A stretch of 64,000 bases of DNA. Origin: Leptodactylus fallax (lineage: Eukaryota > Chordata > Amphibia > Anura > Leptodactylidae). Under the pieces are notes generated by a model that was not told where the DNA came from, ran no database searches, and saw only the letters and a list, made by a program, of their open reading frames with translations. The DNA lies in the NCBI GenBank assembly GCA_947044405.1, contig CAMRHE010000021.1:8168501-8232500 (forward strand), given 5' to 3'. A program made the translations under genes and the position numbers. Of this stretch, positions 1 through 58,889 are shown in pieces (position 1 is the stretch's first letter; every line of letters starts with the position of its first letter).

Positions 1-746
1 CACTTTGGATGAACTACAGAGATCTACAGCTGAGGTGGGAGAGTCTGTCCATAGGACAACAATCAGTCGTACACTGCACAAATCTGGCCTTTATGGAAGA
101 GTGGCAAGAAGAAAGCCATTTCTCAAAGATATCCATAAAAAGTGTCATTTAAAGTGTGCCAAAAGCCACCTGGGAGACACACCAAACATGTGGAAGAAGG
201 TGCTCTAGTCAGATGAAACCAGAATCGAACTTTTTGGCCACAATGCAAAACGATATGTTTGGCGTAAAAGCAACACAGCTCATCACCTTGAACACACCAT
301 CCCCACTGTCAAACTTTTCTTCAGCAGGGACAGGGAAGATGGTTAAAATTGATGGGAAGATGGATGGAGCCAAATACAGGACCATTCTGGAAGAAAACCT
401 GTTGGAGTCTGCAAAAGACCTGAGACTGGGACGGAGATTTATTTTCCAACAAGACAATGATCCCAAACATAAAGCAAAATCTACAATGGAATGGTTCACA
501 AATAAACGTATCCAGGTGTTAGAATGGCCAAGTCAAAGTCCAGACCTGAATCCAATCGAGAATCTGTGGAAAGAGCTGAAAACTGCTGTTCACAAACGCT
601 CTCCATCCAACCTCACTGAGCTCCAGCTGTTTTCCAAGGAAGAATGGGCAAGAATTTCAGTCTCTCAATGTGCAAAACTGATAGAGACATACCCCAAGCG
701 ACTTGCAGCTGTAATCGCAGCAAAAGGTGGCGCTACAAAGTATTAA
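1..746 (+). pseudogene. Tc1 transposase (DD34E), broken copy
   Basis: Transposase that would cut and paste its element at TA sites in the nucleus. The frame enters from outside the window. It carries the second helix-turn-helix region, then an in-frame TAG at 206-208 where the sister copy at 42031-43050 has the Trp of LWSDE, directly before the first catalytic Asp. A 32-bp deletion near 314 removes the HGGGSIMVW block and shifts the frame. Downstream the second Asp (FQQDNDPKH) and the Glu (SPDLNPIE) are intact with 34 residues between them, and the frame ends GGATKY then TAA at 744-746. It therefore cannot make a functional protein. Family assignment is firm from the motifs and from the near-identical copy at 42 kb. 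Confidence 0.92.
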
Positions 747-966
747 CTTAAGGGGGCCGAATAATATTGCACGCCCCACTTTTCAGTTTTTTATTTTTTA
801 CAAAAGTTTAAAATAACCAATAAATTTCGTTCCACTTCACGATTGTGTCCCACTTGTTGTTGATTCTTCACCAAAAAATTAAAATTTTATATCTTTATAT
901 TTGAAGCCTGAAATGTGGCAAAAGGTTGAAAAGTTCAAGGAGTCCGAATACTTTTGCAAGGCACTG
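1..966 (+). mobile_element. Tc1-type DNA transposon, 5' part outside the window
   Basis: The right terminal repeat ends at 966 with the reverse complement of CAGTGCCTTGCAAAAGTATT and is followed by TA (967-968), as expected for Tc1 insertion at TA. The same terminal sequence closes the related copy ending at 43267. The left end lies before base 1. Confidence 0.9.
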
Positions 967-968
967 TA

Positions 969-7264: not shown

Positions 7265-7492
7265 TAGAGATGAGAGAATCGAATCTGCAGAAGTGGAATT
7301 CGATCCGAATTTCAGGAAATACTCAATTCGCATCTAATTCAAATTTCCTCATGCTTTGTGGTAATGATTCGCATTTAGTTAAAAATGGCTGCTCTACATG
7401 GGGCAAGGAACTTTGGGCACGTGGAATCACCCACAATGCCATACATGCAGCCAATCAGCAGCCAGCCCTGTGATGTCACAATCCTTTAACCC
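7265..7492 (+). mobile_element. End fragment of the TAGAGATGAGCGAA hAT family
   Basis: Starts TAGAGATGAGAGAATCGAAT and continues colinearly with the left end of the 9.25-kb hAT at 40256 for about 230 bp, including the shared blocks CAGAAGTGGAATTCGATC and TCACCCACAATGCCA. It stops where a truncated Tc1 begins, so only one end survives. Confidence 0.75.
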
Positions 7493-40247: not shown

Positions 40248-41250
40248 ATTATAGTTAGAGATGAGCGAATCGATTCTGCAGAAGTGGAATTCGATCCTAA
40301 TTTCAGGAAATCTTCGATTCGCCACGATTCCGGATTTCCTCATGCTTTGATGCATCGAATTGCATTTTTTTTATAAAATGGCCGCCGCACATGTTAGGAC
40401 AAGGGGGAAGGGACTCTTGGAGCGCAGCATCACCCACAATGCCAAGCCTGCAGCTAATCAGCACCCAGCAGGACCTGTGATGTCACAGCCCTATAAAAAC
40501 CCTCGGCCATTTTAGGTATAGTCATTCCACATCGCTCTTACTGTAGGGATAGACATCAGCAGGAGCTAGGGAAAGACTTAGAAAACATATAAAAGTTCAG
40601 GGAAAGAGGCGGAGCATTAGAACTATAGGGAAAGGATAGGGAGGAATTGAGAGAAGAATTTGGGGTGGTTGCAGGGTCATTTACAGCAAGAATTTGCAGC
40701 ATAATTCACATCGCAGCACTCACTGCCATTATACTGCTGCTCATTACTCATATCTATGACTTCAAGGTGGAACACAACAAGCCTTTTGCAGTGCAGTACA
40801 GCAAAAAACTATGAATTATCATACACTAATATCTGCATGTATCTGTAAAAAAAAAAATCCTTTTTAAAGGTTTTTATTATAAGGGGCTTATTCACTGTTC
40901 TTCCAAGGCATAACATTATTCAGTACTATTGTGTCAAATAAAACTGAATTATCATCCAATAATATCTGCACTTATCTGTAATAAAAGCCGCCTTTAACGT
41001 GGGGAAAGAAATAAAGACCATATTCTCCATTTTTTACCAGTATAAAGTTGCAGGAAATTTTTCAATACAGTATTGTCAATAATAATTCAATAATTCTTAG
41101 CGGTTATCACTTATTTAAAGGTGTTCATTAGTGTGCAAACCCATAAAAAGGACCATATTCGCCATTTTGTCACCAGTATAAAGTTGCAGGCCATTTTTCA
41201 CTACAGTATTGTCAATAATAATTCAATAATTCTTCGTGGTTATCACTTAT

Positions 41251-41252
<2 letters not shown>

Positions 41253-41322
<70 letters not shown>
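41253..41322. repeat. (AAT)n microsatellite, LINE 3' tail
   Basis: About 70 bp of pure AAT repeats. It directly follows the 3' end of the minus-strand L2 LINE and is best read as its simple-repeat tail, since expanded. Confidence 0.85.
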
Positions 41323-41975
41323 GCCCTTTAGTAGTCCCATAATGGGGAAATTCAGTGTGTTACAGCAGCAAAGATAAGTAGATACAAATACAAATACAAC
41401 ATGTACAGGAATGTTCCAAGATGAGAGGCATTACATTGATAGTAGACAGAGAGATAATAAGTAGCGGGGGGGGGAGGAATTTAACAGGCTGAAAGATATT
41501 TCAGTTCTCTGTGTGTAATGATCTCTGCTTAGGTCGGTGTTGGTTGAACAGCCTAACCGTGGTGGGGAGGAAAGACTTCCGATAGCGCTCCTTCTCATAC
41601 TTAGGGTGGAGTAGTCGGTCACTGACAGTACTGCCCAGCGCGATCACGGTCTTATGCATGGGATGGGACTTCTTCCGCATGGAGCTCACCACGGACAGTA
41701 TCCTTCTATCGCCCACCACCTGCACTAGGTCCAGAGGGCTCCCCAAGACAGAGCTGGCCCTTCTAATCAGCTTGTCAAGTTTATTTCTATCCCTGGTTGA
41801 TATACTGCTCCCCAAGCAGGCCACTCCGAAGAAGATGGCTGATGCCACTACCGAGTTGAAGAAAGCCCTAAGAAGTGCCTCCTGGATTCCAAAGGCTCTC
41901 AGCCTAATAAGCAGGTAGAGCCTGCTGTGGCCCTTCCTGTACAGGACCTCCATGTGTGTAATCAAGTCTCCATAT
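41323..41975 (-). pseudogene. L2/Rex-type LINE ORF2 C-terminus
   Basis: Minus-strand frame of 160 aa (41501-41983), open apart from the ends. It matches the C-terminal thumb-like part of jockey-superfamily reverse transcriptases: YRKGHSRLYLLIRLRAFGI, LLRAFFNSVVASAIFFGVAC, NKLDKLIRRASSVLGSPLDL and DRLLHPKYEKERYRKSFLPT. The catalytic domain is absent because the insertion is 5'-truncated, ending at about 41970 against Tc1 sequence. The 3' untranslated end (TTCCCCATTATGGGACTAC, reversed) runs into the AAT tail. The N-terminal MHLYGD of the frame comes from Tc1 DNA, not the LINE. Confidence 0.82.
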
Positions 41976-43267
41976 AAATGCACCTGCTCTGTGATAGTTT
42001 CAGGGTTCTGTTTAAAGCGCAGAGAGCATCATGAAGACCAAGGAACACACCAGGCAGGTCCGTGATACTGTTGTGGAGAAGATTAAAGCCGGATTTGGAT
42101 ACAAAAAGATTTCCCAAACTTTAAACATCCCAAGGAGCACCGTGCAAGCGATCATATTGAAATGGAAGGAGTATCAGACCACTGCAAATCTACCAAGGCC
42201 CGGCCGTCCCTCTAAACTTTCATCTCAAACAAGGAGACGACTGATCAGAGATGCAGCCAAGAGGCCCATGATCACTCTGGATGAACTGCAGAGATCTACA
42301 GCTGAGGTGGGAGAGCCTGTCCATAGGACAACAATCAGTCGCACACTGCACAAATCTGGCCTTTATGGAAGAGTGGCAAGAAGAAAGCCACTTCTCAAAG
42401 ATATCCATAAAAAGTCTTGTTTAAAGTTTGCCACAAGCCACCTGGGAGACACACCAAACATGTGGAAGAAGGCACTCTGGTCAGATGAAACCAAAATCGA
42501 ACTTTTTGGCCACAATGCAAAACGATATGTTTGGCGTAAAAGCAACACAGCTCATCACCCTGAACACACCATCCCCACTGTCAAACATGGTGGTGGCAGC
42601 ATCATGGTTTGGGTCTGCTTTTCTTCAGCAGGGACAGGGAAGATGGTTAAAATTGATGGGAAGATGGATGGAGCCAAATACAGGACCATTCTGGAAGAAA
42701 ACCTGTTGGAGTCTGCAAAAGACCTGAGACTGGGACGGAGATTTATCTTCCAACAAGACAATGATCCCAAACATAAAGCAAAATCTACAATGGAATGGCT
42801 CACAAATATACGTATCCAGGTGTTAGAATGGCCAAGTCAAAGTCCAGACCTGAATACAATCGAGAATCTGTGGAAAGAGCTGAAAACTGCTGTTCACAAA
42901 CGCTCTCCATCCAACCTCACTGAGTTCGAGCTGTTTTCCAAGGAAGAATGGGCAAGAATTTCAGTCTCTCGATGTGCAAAACTGATAGCGACATACCCCA
43001 AGCGACTTGCAGCTGTAATCGCAGCAAAAGGTGGCGCTACAAAGTATTAACTTAAGGTGGCCGAATAATTTGGCACGCCCCACTTTTCAGTTTTTTATTT
43101 TTTACAAAAGTTTAAAATATCCAATAAATTTCTTTCCATTTCACGATTGTGTCCCACTTGTTGATTCTTCACCCAAAAATTAAAAATTTATATCCTTATG
43201 TTTGAAGCCTGAAATGTGGCAAAAGGTTGAAAAGTTCAAGGGGGCCGAATACTTTCGCAAGGCACTA
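41972..43267 (+). mobile_element. Tc1-type transposon (DD34E), left terminal repeat missing
   Basis: The right end at 43267 (reverse complement of CAGTGCCTTGCGAAAGTATT, last base G to A) is followed by TA. On the left the element starts inside its 5' untranslated region (TATAAATGCACCTGCTCTGT), butted against the L2 fragment. The same family as 1-966. Confidence 0.9.
42031..43050 (+). CDS. Tc1 transposase (DD34E), uninterrupted (339 aa)
   Basis: Complete frame from MKTKEHTRQVRDTVVEKIKA to GGATKY. Two helix-turn-helix regions are joined by PGRP (57-60). Catalytic residues are D152 (WSDETKIELFG), D243 (QQDNDPKH) and E278 (SPDLNTIENLW), 34 apart. The usual Pro of NPIE is Thr here, and HGGGSIMVW has V for G after it (VWVCF). 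The element lacks its left terminal repeat, so even an active protein could not move this copy; it could act on others in trans. The broken sister at 1-746 is almost identical in overlap, so the two belong to one recent subfamily. Confidence 0.94.
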   Translation: MKTKEHTRQVRDTVVEKIKAGFGYKKISQTLNIPRSTVQAIILKWKEYQTTANLPRPGRPSKLSSQTRRRLIRDAAKRPMITLDELQRSTAEVGEPVHRTTISRTLHKSGLYGRVARRKPLLKDIHKKSCLKFATSHLGDTPNMWKKALWSDETKIELFGHNAKRYVWRKSNTAHHPEHTIPTVKHGGGSIMVWVCFSSAGTGKMVKIDGKMDGAKYRTILEENLLESAKDLRLGRRFIFQQDNDPKHKAKSTMEWLTNIRIQVLEWPSQSPDLNTIENLWKELKTAVHKRSPSNLTEFELFSKEEWARISVSRCAKLIATYPKRLAAVIAAKGGATKY

Positions 43268-43436
43268 TACATACACAAGACATGGATCTTCAAAAGGATC
43301 TTGGAATAACAAAATGCAATATAAGTAGGGAAGTATTTAGAACAGGTCAGGAAATAAACAGTGTAAAATTTGTGGTGCATGACAGAGGGATCTGTTATCT
43401 ATCTGTAATCAGGTCGTGATTTCTGACCCTCACAGG

Positions 43437-43870
43437 TCATACATAGTGTGACATGAAGCTGGCATGAATATTAAGTCCAATTTGCAGGGTTTGAAATTTT
43501 TGCATTAACTTGTATTCCCATTCTTTCCTCTCATTCTGCGTCTTAAAATGTCCCATTAAAACCACAACCCGCAAATTTTCAATAGAGTAGTCTTCTCTGG
43601 AGATATGTGCGGCCACCGGGAGGTCTGTTCTGCTGTTATTAATGTTGAATCTGTGTGAGTTCATGCGCTAAGTCTCTGCCCTCTTTCCCCCACATAGAGG
43701 CCTGTGGTGGGACATTGCACACACACTATGAGATACACCACATTGGAATACCTGCAGGAAAATGTCCTCCTAATTCTGTGCACCTGTTGTGACTGTGGGA
43801 TAGGTACACTGTCAGTGGTGTGGATGTGCTTGCAGCTCATGCACTTGTTTTGCAGGCAAGGTGAGGTGCC
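43437..43870 (-). pseudogene. Penelope-like element GIY-YIG endonuclease remnant
   Basis: Minus-strand reading: a zinc-binding-like CMSCKHIHTTDSV (about 43830-43860), then NVVYLIVCVQC and GLYVGE, which form the GIY-YIG core, then RLSARMNSHRFN, LPVAAHISREDYS, EWEYKLMQKFQTL and a C-terminal LNIHASFMSHYV ending at 43437. One base is missing before MNSHRF (about 43665), which shifts the frame. The upstream reverse transcriptase is absent. In PLEs this domain nicks target DNA for priming. The C-x2-C motif followed by GIY-YIG resembles the Neptune-type group. It lies inside the 9.25-kb hAT. Confidence 0.8.
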
Positions 43871-44925
43871 ATTTTCAGTTGGGGCCTTCAGGGCACTCCG
43901 GACAATAATACGTCTCAGGCGAGTACTCCTTGGGTAACTATGGCTCTCACCGCACTAAACACCCGCTCTGATGCCACACTACTGGCCGTGCAGGACAGCT
44001 TTTCCAGGACAAACTAGGGCAGTTGCGGCCACAAATCCAGTTTGGCTGCCCAGTAGTCCAGGAGAGCATCGATGACGGGTGGCAGGGAACACTCTAAGTA
44101 TGCCACCACCTGCTGGTTCAGGTTCTTCTCTGTGTGTAGCTGCTGATGAGTAGTTTCTTCACTATGCGGCTGAAGAAAGCTGCTCATCAGCAACTCTAGC
44201 CTCAGGTTGCTGCTGATGGAGGCAATACTGCTCCTGCCACCCACCCTCACAGCTGCCATGGCAGTGCAAGGTGAGCACTCAGGGCCCGGTCGGACCTGCG
44301 AGAGTATTGATGATGGCACAGACAGGCAGCAGCCAACTTACTACATAGGATATCTCTATAGTAGTTCAGTTTGTCCTCCCTCTCAGCGGGTGTAAAAAAG
44401 GCCCACATTTTTCCCTGATAGTGAGGGTCTAACATAGTGGAAAGCCAGTAATCATCCCTCTGCTGAATAGTGACAATTTGGCTGTCACTGCGCAAGGAAG
44501 TCAGCATGCTTCGGGCCATTTGCTCAAATGAATCCAAGGGACTCCCTCCATCCATCTCCACTGCAAACTGCCATGGTGTGTCTGGGTCACAGGCCTCATC
44601 ATCCTCATCGCCCTCTGGCTGTTCTGGTTGCTCCTGTTCCTCCTCTCCACCCATTTGGCTACACATTATTAGTGCCCCAATGTCCTCCTCATTATCCTCC
44701 TCCAGTTCAGCCCCCACAGGGCTCATGTGGCCTTGAGATGTAGATGCCACATCTCCAGTCCCCTGACCAGCCAGATTGAAAAGCATCTTTTCCAGGATGT
44801 GATTCAGTGGAATGACGTTGTTCATCCCATAGTCCTGGCGACTAACTATCAAAGTGTCCTCCTCAAAGGGAACGAGCAAACGGCAGGTGTCTCGCATGAG
44901 CTGCCACTGGCTAATGTTAAAGATA

Positions 44926-45560
44926 CAGTTGTGCTAAAGGCACAGGAAACTTGGTCAAAATTGAAGGAAAGTTGAAGGCCGCACGTTATCAGCAAATACT
45001 GGAGGCAAATTTGCACTCATCAGCCAGGAAGCTGCACATGGGACGTACTTGGACATTCCAACATGACAACGATCCAAAACACAAGGCCAAGTCGACCTGT
45101 CATTGTCTACAGCAGAAGAAAGTGAAGGTTCTGGAGTGGCCATCAATATTATTGAGCCACTCTGGGGAGATCTCAAGCGCGCAATACATGCAAGACAGCC
45201 CAGGAATTTACAGGAACTGGAGACTTTTTGCCAAGAAGAATGGGCAGTTTTACCATCTGAGAAAATAAAGAGCCTCATTCACAACTACCACAAAAGACTT
45301 CAAGCTGTCATTGATGTTAGAGGGGGCAATACACGGTATGAAGAACTGGGGTATGTGAACTTTTGAACAGGGTCATTTTGATGTTTTTGGTTGTCATTAT
45401 GATTTAAAAAGAGAAAACACAGAAGTTTGACAATAAATGGCTTCAACCAACCACTAACCATGAGTGGAGAAAAAAATTTTTGTGTTATCATTCATATTCT
45501 CTGAAAAAGGGCAAAAAACCAAAAAATCTGCCAGGGTATGTAAACTTTTTAGCACAACTC
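44926..45560 (+). mobile_element. Internally deleted Tc1-type transposon inside the hAT transposase
   Basis: Left end CAGTTGTGCTAAA (only 13 bp remain) after TA 44924-44925. Right end is the reverse complement of GAGTTGTGCTAAAAAGTTTA at 45560 before TA (45561-45562). The left jump goes straight into mid-transposase sequence. Its insertion splits the hAT gene. Confidence 0.9.
44941..45366 (+). pseudogene. Tc1 transposase C-terminal half, two frames
   Basis: Begins at GTGNLVKIEG-like sequence and is open to 45268 through YQQILEANLHSSARKLHMGR and [17 protein letters not shown] (second Asp) to VKVLEWPS. A short deletion there removes the QSPDLN block and shifts the frame. The correct frame continues at 45140-45366 as INIIEPLWGDLKRAIHARQP (catalytic Glu in IIEPLW), FCQEEWAVLPSEKIKSLI and GGNTRYEELGYVNF, then TGA. 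The first Asp and DNA-binding region are deleted. Dead copy. Confidence 0.88.
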
Positions 45561-47281
45561 TACACAGGGGAGTACTTCTGTCCGCTTGGATCATAAAGAA
45601 TCGTTTATGGCTTTTCTCTGTTCATATAATCGATATGGAGGGTGGAACATATGGAGGGTGGAATTCCAATGGGTGGAAACATTGCATATCAGCCTATGTT
45701 GTGGGAGGCCGTTCTGCCGCTGCAGCTCAAGGAGGGTGTGCTTGGCGGTGTATGAGTGGCTGAAGTTTATGCAAAGTTTCCTTGACATTTTTAGGATGTC
45801 TTGCAGATGGGTGGAACACTTAAGGAAACGCTTGACAACCAGATTGAACACGTGTGCCATGCAGGGTGCATGGCTTAGCCCTCCTTGACGAAGCGTCGAC
45901 ACCATGTTTTTTCCATTGTTGGTCACAATGGTTCCGATTTTGAGGTGTCGCGGAGGATTCGATTTCTTGAGGAAGGACACAGAGCAGTTCCTCCCCTGTG
46001 TGACTTCATTCACCCAGGTAAACGAGGTGTAGAACAGGTGTAGAACAGCGTGACACTGCTGTGCCCTGCATAAGTGGTATGCTGGAGGAGCACTGTGAAT
46101 TGTCGCTGCAGTGGAGGCTGAGGAGACAGTGGAGGATGAGGCTGACATTGTTGCAGGACCAACAGCGTGAGAACGTGGAGGCTGTCCAAGTTGCTGGTGT
46201 GTCTGGGCAGGCACCACATTAACCCAGTGGGCCGTAAATGACATATATTGTCTTTGACCATAGTTACAGCTCCATATGTCGGCACTGCCATGAACTTTGT
46301 CAGACACCGACAGGCTCAAGGACTGGTCCACCTTCTCTTCTACATATTTGTGCATGGCTGGTACTGCCTTTTTGGCAAATAAATGACAGCTTGGGACTCT
46401 CCACCTCGGCTTGGCACAAGCCATGAGTTCTCTGAAAGGTGCAGAGTCCACCACTTGGAAAGGGAGTGACTGCAGCACCAGCAACTTCGACAGGAGCACG
46501 TTCAGCTTCTGCACTGTTGGATGAGTGCACGCATACTGATGTCTCTTCGAAATCGCTTCTGTGATGGATTGCTGACGCAATGACTGACTAGGAGGAGGAG
46601 GAGGAGCAGATGATGGAAAGGACACACAGCTTCCTTTGGCTGAGGTGGTGGAGCCTTGACTGCCTGAAATAGCGTGCGTGCCTCTGGGTGCTGCAGTGGT
46701 TGCTGCGGCAGGCTGGACCACCACATTGGAGCCACAGCTCTCCCAGGACACTTTATGGTGATGCTGCATATGTTGACACAGGGCTGTGGTGCCAACATTG
46801 GCACCCTGGCCACACTTCACCTTCTGCCCACAGATTAAACATATGGCCATGTTGACCTCCCCCGGCAGCTTTACAAAAAACTGCCACACCGCCGAGTAGG
46901 TGATTTTACCCCCAACACTCTGTGCTAACTGACTGCTACTGCCACTGCCTCTGTGAACCCCTGCACCACTGCTTTCCAGGCAGGTAGGCTGCTGCGAAGC
47001 GGGTGGTCTACTCCGGGCACGTTTAGCTCACGACCTCCCACTGCTTCCACCCTGCTGACTCATGCACAAGCTGCAACCCTCTTCTCCTGATGACGATGAA
47101 GCCCCTCCCAATTACGATCGGCTTCATCATCATCCACTACAATCTGCAGTTCACTGATGTCCTCCTCAACACCAGCTCCCATGCCACTCTCCTCATCACT
47201 ACTTGCCCGCCTACCAGAGGAAGCGGCGGATGTCTTCTCCAGATCTTAGCTGAGCAGTAGCTGCTGACTGTCCCGTGGGTC

Positions 47282-48145
47282 TGCTGCCTTGGGATAACCT
47301 TGGACTCTGACCTATCCTTCAAGCCACACATCCAAACCCTCAACACCTCCTGCCGCCACCAACTCAAGAACATCCATCGAATCTGCTCCTTCCTCACCTC
47401 AGAAACTACAAAGATGCTAGTCCATGCCCTCATAATCTCCCGCTTAGACTAATGTAACACCCTTCTCCATGGCCTCCCAGCAAATTCTCTCGCCCCCCTC
47501 CAGTCCACCTTAAATTGCACCGCTCGCTTAATACACCTCTCCCCCCGTTCTTCATCTGCCGCTCCCCTCTGCCAATCCCTTCACTGGCTACCCGTTGCCC
47601 AGCGAAGTGAAATCAAATTACTAATGCTGACATACAAAGCCATCCACAACCTGTCCTCTCCATATATCTCCAATCTAATCTCCCGCTACCTGCCCGCACG
47701 TAACCTCCAATCCTCCAAAGACCTCCTACTCCGCTCTTCTCTTATCCGCTCTTCACACAACTGTCTCCAAGACTTCTCCCATGCATCCCCCATACTCTGG
47801 AACTCATTACCAAGCCACATAAAACTGACCCCCACAATCACAAGCTTCAAGAAGGCCCTGAAGACTCACCTATTCAGGAAGGCCTACAACCCCCAATAAC
47901 GCTACTGTCTCCATACCACCACCTGAACAGCCTCTACCCCCACCTTCTGTCTCTATCCCTCTTCCCTCATAGACTGTAAGCCCTTGTGGGGAGGGCCCTG
48001 TATCCCACTGTGCCATTTGGTCACTGTTAGTATTATCTGTTTTGTATATCTTGTGTACCGTATGTAAACCCTCAAATGTAAAGCACCATGGAATTAATTG
48101 TACTATATAAATAAACAATAATAAAAAATAATAATAATACCTCCT
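47282..48145 (+). mobile_element. CR1/L2-group LINE 3' part with AAT tail
   Basis: 5'-truncated plus-strand LINE inserted in the N-terminal part of the hAT. Coding to 47899, then a 3' untranslated region (ACTGTAAGCCCTTGTGGGGA onward) that recurs at 12036-12254, and an AAT/AAAT tail to about 48145. Confidence 0.88.
47285..47899 (+). pseudogene. LINE ORF2 C-terminus (CR1/L2 group)
   Basis: Translates as LDSDLSFKPHIQTLNTSCRH, FLTSETTKMLVHALIISRLD, then TAA where a Tyr-Cys pair is usual (about 47451). It continues QSLHWLPVAQRSEIKLLMLT, YKAIHNLSSPYISNLISRYL and ILWNSLPSHIKL to HLFRKAYNPQ and TAA. WLPV...R..K.......YKA....PPY(L) is characteristic of the C-terminal end of CR1- and L2-type reverse transcriptases. 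Only the stop and the truncation break it, so the insertion is younger than the hAT host gene decay. Confidence 0.88.
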
Positions 48146-48828
48146 CCTTACTCTACAGTGGATCTGAGCCCACAGCATAAAGTAGTTCTATGTTGAGCAA
48201 GTTGAGGACAGGTGAGGGCACAGGGCCTGCTGCCAGGCCATGCTAACTAAGGGTTGTGTCTGACGAACCCACCGACTCTTGGCTGGGGGTGTCTGTTGTG
48301 ACTTGGCATGAATTGGATGACCGATTCAACCAGTCTACAACCGTTGGGTTGTTGATCAAGACACAACCGCTACTTGACACTGAGAGCTGCTGTGACCTGT
48401 GCCTGCATCAGAAACATTTAGGCATGCGGCCCTCCCCTGTGCATGGCCTCTCTGTCTGACATATTGTTCGATGAAAAAACGTAATTACAAAGGGCAAAAA
48501 GGCCTGTTATTTTCTACTTTGAAGAGAATGGAAAATATGCCCCTTATTTCTTTCCCCACTAATGAACATCTATAACAAAAGCGTGATAAAGGCAGAGATT
48601 TGTGGCTTTGAATTATTGAATTATTGACAATACTGTATTGATAAATGGCCTGCAACTTTATACTGCAAAATAGCGAATATGGTCCTCCTTATGGGTTTCC
48701 ACACTAATAAACACCTTTAAATAAGGTGTATGCTCCTTCAGCATACCATATGTACAGGGGACAGTGGTGTCACACTGTTCTACACCTCGTTTGCCTGGGT
48801 GAACAAAGTCACACAGGGGAGGAAGTGG

Positions 48829-49045
48829 GTCACTGTATGTCCTCCTCATGCTGCTTCCCACTGGGTCACACTGTGTACTCCTCATGCCGCTGCCACTGGG
48901 ACACTGTATGCTCTCCTCATGCCGCAGCCACTGGGCCACTGTATGCCCTCCTCATGCCGCTGCCACTGCAGGGTCACTGTATGTCGTCCTACTGCCACTT
49001 TCACTGGGTCACTGTATGGCATCCTCATGCTGCTGCCAACTCCAC
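48829..49045. repeat. Minisatellite of ~40-bp units
   Basis: Five to six imperfect units built on CACTGTATG-x-CCTCCTCATGC-x-GCTGCCACTGGG in the right flank of the hAT. Units vary from about 36 to 46 bp and have no spacer structure. Confidence 0.75.
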
Positions 49046-49513
49046 GTTATGTCACCTTGCCACTCTGTAGACATCTATGAGGAATCTGCAAACGAGGGTG
49101 TAAAAGAAGTGCGCTCTTTCACTCTACAGTAGGATGTTGGGCCTCTGCATGGTTCTTTCTACCTGGCACTAACATAGACCTGTAAGGCTGGGTTCACACT
49201 TGACTTAGTTGGACAGTTTTGGCCCCATAACTGTCCAAATAAGTGAAGTGTGCTTCGATTCTAAGAGCGACGCCTGCCATGTGCATGTCATTCAGATTGA
49301 CAGTATTGTTTGACTACCACAGTAAGCTCCCTATGCGTGTTACTGCAAGGCACAGTGTTCTACACCACTATACAGGATCTCTGAAGCTAGGAAATAGGTG
49401 TTTTTTAGCAATATTTGCAGTGAAGTAATTCGGATCGAAGCAAATTTTTTTGGAACTTCGAATAGAAGTGCTTAATCGAACTTTTGGGAAATTCACTCAT
49501 CTCTAATTATAGT

Positions 49514-58529: not shown

Positions 58530-58889
58530 TGGATTGCTAGGCCCCTCTCCATCAGCAGTATGTATAGCGGTCGGGGAACCAGGCTTTCCCCGACCACTAT
58601 CATGGGGCCCCAGCACTTGCCTGGGTACGCCAGGTGCTGACGCTGGCCCTGTCGGCACCCCCCGATCTCACTGCGGGGGGGTGTCGAGAGGGAAAGGTGC
58701 ATGGCGGAACCCCTTGGATGCCGCATTCATGTTTGACCGCGGCATCCAAGGGGTTAAAAGCCACAATTGGAGCTGTGCAATTCGTTACCACAAACTGTGA
58801 GGAAATCCGGATTCGATGCGAATCGAATATTTCCTGAAATTCGGCTCAAATTCCACTTCGTCAGCTTTGATTTAATTCGCTCATCTCTA
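58530..58889 (-). mobile_element. Terminal part of the TAGAGATGAGCGAA hAT family, reverse orientation
   Basis: Ends TTCGCTCATCTCTA at 58889. Read in reverse, it matches the left end of the 40256 element for over 100 bp (GAAGTGGAATT, CCGAATTTCAGGAAATATTC). It is joined to GC-rich repeat with the CCCCTTGGATGCCGCATTCA hairpin (58710-58755). Confidence 0.6.

Follow-up and report, generated by a model that had tools for sequence, protein, structure and literature searches.

The window (the whole stretch of 64,000 nucleotides of Leptodactylus fallax DNA that was analysed) contains a hAT element of 9,250 bp (40256-49505), which has inverted ends of 14 bp and is flanked by a perfect duplication of 8 bp. 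It is composed of the following features, where LT and RT are the left and right arms, RI the 5' part of the transposase region and Tc1b a deleted Tc1-like element.

40248-40255, plus strand: target-site duplication, left copy (ATTATAGT)
40256-40269, plus strand: terminal inverted repeat, left (TAGAGATGAGCGAA)
40256-41251, plus strand: left arm (LT), with subterminal repeat units at 41010-41250
41252-41951, minus strand: 5'-truncated non-LTR retrotransposon, named L2-like in a sequence-only reading of this DNA, with a (TAA)n tail at 41252-41322; apparently private to this copy
41952-43269, plus strand: Tc1-like transposon, right end kept; frame 42016-43050 (Pfam HTH_Tnp_Tc3_2, HTH_SB, DDE_3)
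43270-43917, minus strand: fragment called Penelope-like (PLE) by that reading
43918-44925, minus strand: hAT transposase relic, C-terminal part, collinear with other copies
44924-44925: TA duplication of Tc1b, left; empty site in the uninverted (class A) copies A040, A025 and A031
44926-45560, plus strand: internally deleted Tc1-like element (Tc1b), inherited passenger
45561-45562: TA duplication of Tc1b, right, from the comparison of empty and filled sites
45563-47273, minus strand: hAT transposase relic, N-terminal part, with the BED zinc finger; frame 45591-47027 (478 aa)
47274-48137, plus strand: 5'-truncated fragment with an AAT tail, called CR1/L2-like by the same reading (Pfam gave no confirmation); inherited passenger
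48138-48725, minus strand: RI, with a subterminal repeat unit (48610-48725) at its end
48726-48730: putative inversion junction, from subterminal unit to transposase-derived fragment
48731-49505, plus strand: right arm (RT)
48731-48827, plus strand: transposase-derived copy, matching 46092-45985 and truncated at the inversion junction
48826-49038, plus strand: right-arm minisatellite, period 35, 6 units
49492-49505, minus strand: terminal inverted repeat, right, one mismatch
49506-49513, plus strand: target-site duplication, right copy (ATTATAGT)

The boundaries are those of the single transposon proposed by the sequence-only reading. ATTATAGT is present at both 40248-40255 and 49506-49513, TAGAGATGAGCGAA starts at 40256, and the inverted end TTCACTCATCTCTA, with one mismatch, runs to 49505. 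On its two strands, a stretch of 64 kb should contain ATTATAGT 3.3 times, i.e. about 2.6e-5 per position and strand. When the window was screened for end-like pairs 60-12,000 bp apart (at most 3 mismatches to the end and at most 2 between octamers), the 40256/49505 pair was the only one with matching octamers. Genome-wide, the 14-bp end has 13,955 exact matches, compared to 6 for a reversed-pattern control. Both ends and octamers were readable in 5 of 19 merged copies; in all five, which are copies other than the window's, the same ends flank the same transposase, and each copy has its own 8-bp duplication, perfect in three cases.

The minus-strand BED transposase relic announced by that reading was recovered with Pfam (zf-BED, E=2e-8 in the window). 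The BED zinc finger was also found in copy L040 (E=1.7e-9), and the C-terminal dimerisation domain Dimer_Tnp_hAT in the class A copy L031 (E=3.7e-15). The three transposase frames of the window scanned in addition to the BED frame had no Pfam match, and the 548-aa frame of L025 had no PDB match. In the hAT superfamily the BED zinc finger is common, though not universal. The family is a BED-type hAT, abundant in the 2.5-Gb genome, and resembles the Ac/Hermes type by its BED and dimerisation domains, short inverted ends, 8-bp duplications and subterminal repeats. It differs from that type in its size (the remaining five complete copies measure 5.6-6.7 kb), in that its interior occurs in both orientations relative to the ends, and in that one lineage bears two foreign elements. 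Among 32 flanking octamers, which are partly non-independent, T was observed at position 2 in 25 and A at position 7 in 25. The consensus RTnnnnAY agrees with the Ac/Hermes-type nTnnnnAn, the pattern given for Hermes (PMC10368747); ATTATAGT has G at position 7. A search of titles and abstract starts found no description of this hAT element, which does not by itself make it unpublished, and the 14-bp end had no match in the text of the papers searched.

Thirty loci, one of them in the window, gave the best transposase matches, and 29 of these fall into two classes. Class A copies are uninverted (left arm, RI, transposase, right arm) and both insert sites are empty; the complete ones (n=2) measure 5.6-5.7 kb. 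Class B copies, to which the window copy belongs, have the opposite interior order and carry Tc1b, with its TA duplication, and the CR1-like fragment. At 17 of the 30 loci the A order was read from one or both arms and neither insert was present; the B order with Tc1b was found at 12, of which 11 also have CR1 (the CR1 of L013 was scored in its longer stretch, L044); one locus, L010, cannot be ordered. L021, where the CR1 stretch is absent, has a deletion reaching 48541. A fresh sample was then drawn, confined to exact matches on low-numbered contigs: 10 of the 100 exact matches listed for the filled Tc1b left junction, and as many for the empty one. The order was B in all 9 readable filled loci (of 10) and A in all 9 readable empty loci (of 10), and CR1 was present in 9/9 readable filled loci versus 0/5 readable empty loci. 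Altogether, the interior is inverted relative to the ends in 21 of 21 ordered loci with passengers, versus none of 26 without; these counts are given without Fisher statistics because the loci share descent. In the unrooted tree, a branch with support 92/93 separates off class B. L028 has the inserts and order of class B, yet at the best-supported branch (100/100) its transposase sequence falls with class A, at a mean distance of 0.088 to A and 0.098 to B. It may be either an early branch or a product of gene conversion; support for a class B that includes it is below the tool's star.

In class A copies, an open frame runs through each of the two passenger sites. Tc1b shows the Tc1/mariner features of inverted ends and insertion at TA with TA duplication, as seen from empty and filled sites (the TA is mutated in the empty site of A031); its DDE_3 match is weak and below the cut-off (E=0.099). 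The CR1 site is empty in three class A copies. Genome-wide, the filled left junction of Tc1b was counted 699 times (control 7) and the empty site 1,683 times (control 6), each from one short junction with up to 3 mismatches; partial copies may be included. Among class B copies, excluding L028, the mean pairwise difference is 0.060 for Tc1b and 0.070 for CR1; the hAT itself, with 0.078 and 0.068 in two of its parts, is like its passengers. The element moved with its passengers, since three other complete class B copies have their own duplications (B041 8/8, B042 7/8, B043 6/8) and unrelated flanks. Despite looking recent and private, Tc1b and CR1 are, on this comparison of copies, to be regarded as inherited and as predating the window copy.

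In uninverted copies the transposase has the left arm 5' of it and the right arm 3' of it. Subterminal blocks had been noticed earlier as inverted, and they are (41110-41169 against 48666-48725, 92%; 41174-41219 against 48620-48665, 96%), although this is not the original structure of the element: they are one array split by inversion of the interior. Eleven class A copies were followed into the right arm, and in 7 of them the transposase-derived fragment spans 45985 to about 46182. It is lacking in A025, A033 and A037, as well as in A040, whose right arm is broken. In class B it stops at 46092, at the inversion junction. The uninverted order would then be ancestral, because the fragment is uncut in those seven uninverted copies and cut at the junction in the window.

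A different status applies to the block at 41252-43917, composed of L2, Tc1 and the putative PLE fragment. None of the other copies examined has it at this position, and it looks, from these comparisons, like the only part private to the window copy. The L2-like stretch had no Pfam match of its own; for frame 41501-42028, RVT_1 was found in 2 of 62 relatives. Compared to a complete copy in L044, the Tc1 lacks about 316 bp of its left side. The putative PLE fragment adjoins the transposase at 43917 on one side and is cut by the Tc1 end on the other; in Pfam its 97-aa frame had no match and its 76-aa frame only an unrelated weak one (E=0.079). A relative of it, in two pieces (77% and 95%), is present elsewhere in copy B028, near transposase position 44325 and not 43917, which rules out a PLE shared with L028. 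The sequence-only reading named the single inserts without giving coordinates; inserts that fit its list are present and, going rightward, follow the order it gave. Its view that they came later holds so far for this block, and fails for the deleted Tc1 and CR1/L2.

That all inserts are later, private insertions into the window copy has next to no probability left. Such a reading is in keeping with the insertion marks (the TA duplication of Tc1b, the tails of CR1 and L2) and with the solitary L2, Tc1 and PLE block, but both passengers recur at identical positions (Tc1b in 12 of the 30 loci, CR1 in 11), CR1 is present in every readable fresh filled locus and one Tc1b junction occurs 699 times. 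Breakpoints shared by copies with different flanks rule out later insertion for these two. Segmental duplication or unequal exchange would equally yield shared inserts and order, but no result favours it specifically, and it is barely credible as the means by which class B spread: the octamers of B041, B042 and B043 lie exactly at the ends, and 134-400-bp flanks are dissimilar among four class B copies, window included. For complete copies it is ruled out by these octamers and flanks; the class A duplications of A025 and A031 are both 8/8, and no resemblance was found between the flanks of any end-to-end copies compared.

It is also very improbable that the order seen in class B came first and that class A is the inverted form. 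The tree, being unrooted, would allow it, as would the three class A right arms of 11 without transposase fragment and the fourth that is broken. However, class A lacks both inserts at sites that are otherwise continuous, and its right-arm fragment matches the transposase for about 90 bp past the class B breakpoint. As the match continues beyond that breakpoint, class B could not have supplied the fragment. One might further suppose that a truncated BED protein from class B still acts, as helper or repressor, on the mobility of that class, given that in the window the BED-bearing N-terminal frame stays open over 478 aa. We regard this as unlikely: stops interrupt the stretch in every class B locus (11 of 12) except the window's, where the open frame may reflect only chance and age.

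We consider it highly probable that the window copy belongs to a rearranged, non-autonomous class B lineage with a broken transposase, which spread in trans together with its passengers. The interior of one class A copy would have been inverted, with breakpoints in the left subterminal array and in the transposase-derived fragment of the right arm. Tc1 and CR1 would also have entered, before or after the inversion. Having lost its own transposase, class B may have been moved by class A transposase acting in trans on the unchanged ends, and would so have spread along with them, leaving the roughly 700 filled junctions counted for Tc1b. This source is assumed rather than seen, since no intact transposase was found among the class A copies examined either: 16 of the 17 loci have stops inside the scored 478-aa stretch, and the three copies translated are all broken. 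The window copy would have been inserted at ATTATAGT and have gained PLE, then Tc1 inside PLE, then L2, whose insertion probably removed several hundred bp. The inversion may even have had an effect of its own: turning the transposase around between two unlike arms, along with its truncation by Tc1, could have allowed the element to parasitise its own family efficiently, say through an uncoupled promoter arm or a BED-only protein. This is a speculative and unlikely extension; if true, it would explain why about three tenths of the copies that can be counted at the Tc1 site descend from a single rearranged one.

Faulty gap repair can give rise to non-autonomous DNA transposons with rearranged interiors. 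Like such derivatives, the element described here has its own transposase broken, its ends kept and a filler duplication (44211-44360) at a junction; unlike them, it has its whole interior inverted and kept rather than deleted, and two nested elements amplified as passengers. Nested insertions routinely serve as a clock, the inner element being the later. Here the clock would be reversed: two nested elements came first, and their host element spread them to several hundred loci. Annotating each passenger as an insertion would produce hundreds of separate Tc1 and CR1 events, with wrong ages and copy numbers. As an uninverted form without passengers and an inverted form with them occur side by side in this genome, one can also test what decides whether non-autonomous hAT elements succeed.

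Among the first 17 matches to the BED-hAT transposase (P0001-P0017), 16, all but P0011, are named as frogs, which include Gastrophryne carolinensis, Staurois parvus and Hyla sarda. These 17 have 33-79% amino-acid identity over 26-83% of the query. The Gastrophryne model P0002, which is marked low quality, reads through the Tc1b site without insert.

The octamer ATTATAGT is present at both flanks of the window element and its inverted ends of 14 bases differ by one mismatch. The duplication and inverted ends of the sequence-only reading are thus borne out, as are its inverted subterminal blocks and its minus-strand relic of a BED transposase. No other end-like pair of the window has octamers that match, and the left 14-mer has 13,955 exact copies in the genome (2.50 Gb, 2,215 contigs) against 6 for the reversed pattern. 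By the features tested the element is a hAT. Its parts are as follows (the names L2, PLE and CR1 are those of the sequence-only reading):

40256-41251, left arm
41252-43917, L2 + Tc1 + PLE block (Tc1 41952-43269, PLE 43270-43917)
43918-47273, minus strand, transposase relic
44926-45560, internally deleted Tc1, a passenger
47274-48137, CR1/L2-like passenger (CR1)
48138-48725, 5' part of the transposase region (RI)
48731-49505, right arm

The octamers flanking hAT copies show a target preference RTnnnnAY, in agreement with the pattern nTnnnnAn given for Hermes (PMC10368747). By protein comparison, relatives of the transposase occur in frogs; P0001-P0008, P0010 and P0013, from other frogs, are identical to it at 70-79% of amino acids across 39-53% of the query. 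Such identity is high for dead elements of long-separated frog lineages, and horizontal transfer is possible.

The genome was searched with the 478-aa transposase frame, which gave 89 scored matches among 18,349 candidates, a lower bound. Thirty transposase loci, window included, were compared at the DNA level by cutting the window element into segments and placing every segment in each locus, with longer stretches for some. Class A (17/30 loci) contains neither the deleted Tc1 nor CR1 and reads, in transposase sense, left arm - RI - transposase - right arm, at least one arm being read per locus. Class B (12/30), to which the window element belongs, has the deleted Tc1 at one common site and the arms swapped; CR1 is present in 11 of these 12 loci and was removed by deletion in L021. 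The remaining locus, L010, is without either insert and its ends are out of reach. The unusual point is that one lineage, with several hundred copies, combines an inverted interior with two passengers of foreign origin.

As the first 30 loci had been picked by likeness to the window, a second sample was drawn: 10 filled loci (Tc1 site with the deleted Tc1) and 10 empty ones, from 100 listed exact matches each, chosen by place alone, none being among the first 30. Nine filled loci were readable on the 3' side (L070 was not), and all nine have the left arm there, the class B order; nine empty loci were readable (L080 was not), all with the right arm, the class A order. CR1 was found in 9/9 readable filled loci (L090 unreadable) and in 0/5 readable empty loci (L101, L103, L104, L105 and L109 unreadable at the site). 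With both samples pooled, the arm order is swapped in 21/21 ordered loci with the deleted Tc1 versus 0/26 without it. Because these 47 loci have common descent, they are best seen as one event and not as 47 tests. Genome-wide, at up to 3 mismatches, the left junction of the deleted Tc1 (23 bp) occurs 699 times (reversed control 7) and the empty site, at equal length, 1,683 times (control 6); class B thus represents about three tenths (0.29) of the copies countable in this way.

The inverted subterminal blocks are real, but their source is the class B arrangement, where the subterminal units lie on both sides, face to face; in class A the left-arm units adjoin those of RI (48610-48725), side by side and in the same direction. 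The right-arm minisatellite of 7 of the 11 class A copies read as far as this arm (A014, A017, A022, A024, A029, A031 and A035) includes a fragment copied from the transposase (45985 to about 46180). It is absent from A025, A033 and A037 and from the broken arm of A040; among the second-sample empty loci it is whole in L084 and partial in L089. In the window and in the class B copy B041, the fragment ends after GGAGGAGCA, with one base different in the window, and runs directly into a subterminal unit (window 48726-48731). Since class A keeps the fragment uncut, the class A order is the earlier one. At the other inversion junction, class B has a second copy of transposase 44211-44360, about 80% like it, which may be a trace of faulty repair; the stretch between the two copies seems to be lost in some class B copies. 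The inversion could have arisen by gap repair after excision, or by other end joining.

The empty insert sites come from A040, A025 and A031, all of class A. The target of the Tc1 relic is TA, doubled in class B and mutated in A031; the CR1 insertion point follows GCTGACTGTCC, give or take a few extra bases. Five of the 19 merged copies were read end to end with their octamers, an end being missing, changed or outside the stretch elsewhere:

B041, class B, 6,628 bp, octamer GTTTTTAC on both sides
B042, class B, 6,649 bp, octamers GTTAACAC/GTTAGCAC
B043, class B, 6,696 bp, octamers GTATGGAC/GTAGGGCC
A025, class A, 5,615 bp, octamer GCTGTGTC on both sides
A031, class A, 5,700 bp, octamer ATAATGAC on both sides

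No two flanks (118-400 bp) are alike among these five copies and the window. Given the own octamers and mutually unlike flanks of complete copies, class B elements have transposed carrying their passengers, which are thus inherited inserts. Passengers and hAT are about equally diverged among class B copies: leaving out L028, the mean pairwise difference is 0.060 for the deleted Tc1, 0.070 for CR1, and 0.078 and 0.068 for two parts of the transposase. For the younger Tc1, of the kind at 41952-43269, the differences among five copies are 0.03-0.06.

The 5' junction of CR1 exists in two forms, with 33-34 bases (L028, L030, L034, L036, L038, L091, L095, L097) or 13-14 bases (L011, L012, L016, L027, L096, L098, L099, window) between the transposase match at 47262 and the CR1 match at 47276; L093 and L094 fit neither form cleanly. 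This form is a sub-lineage marker within class B.

In a tree built from the N-terminal part of the transposase (30 sequences), class B forms one side of a branch with support 92/93. Each class looks like a burst, as inner branches are mostly short and unresolved (21/27 open). Mean differences are 0.070 within A, 0.079 within B without L028, and 0.095 between A and B. L028 carries class B traits, yet the best-supported branch (100/100) places it on the A side, a conflict for which early branching or gene conversion would account.

Open frames span both insert sites in class A copies. At the CR1 site they measure 182 aa in A040 and 161 aa in A031; at the Tc1 site, 557 aa in A040 and 548 aa in A025. 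The BED and hAT dimerisation domains are recognised in class A, and the Tc1 relic breaks the frame in class B. Judging from these frames, class B would be unable to make a whole transposase and would have been moved in trans. Counting against such movement, class A likewise yielded no intact transposase, 16 of its 17 loci having stops in the scored stretch. The family may now be dead.

The L2 + Tc1 + PLE block was found at the window's site in no other locus examined. This site was read across in class B copies B027, B028, B030, B036 and B038; in B027, B030, B036 and B038 it is occupied by a hAT stretch of several hundred bp that is missing from the window, namely the 44211-44360 copy with its 3' flank, plus a subterminal unit in three of the four. 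Relative to a complete copy in L044, the block's Tc1 is about 316 bp short on the left. The Tc1 probably entered PLE, since its right end lies at a point beyond which a related stretch in B028 continues; on this one comparison, L2 would have come after Tc1, removing the Tc1 left side and the hAT stretch. A second Tc1 of this kind lies at window 1-968 (3.8% different over 965 bases), and members of the family lie within or next to further hAT copies, at different places (L044, L017, L024, L105).

Short left-arm pieces with the end 14-mer lie at window 7265-7489 (one mismatch, at 7265) and 58776-58889 (exact, at 58889). Among the end-like pairs of the window neither has a partner end with a matching octamer, and both are probably broken short relatives. 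Eight further loci (L001-L008) contain six short elements sharing the ends of the window hAT, with 353, 450 and 499 bp between ends where the octamers agree in 7 or 8 of 8 bases; the left arm is matched by 8/8 of these loci and the right arm by 7/8. Such short copies may account for many of the 13,955 ends.
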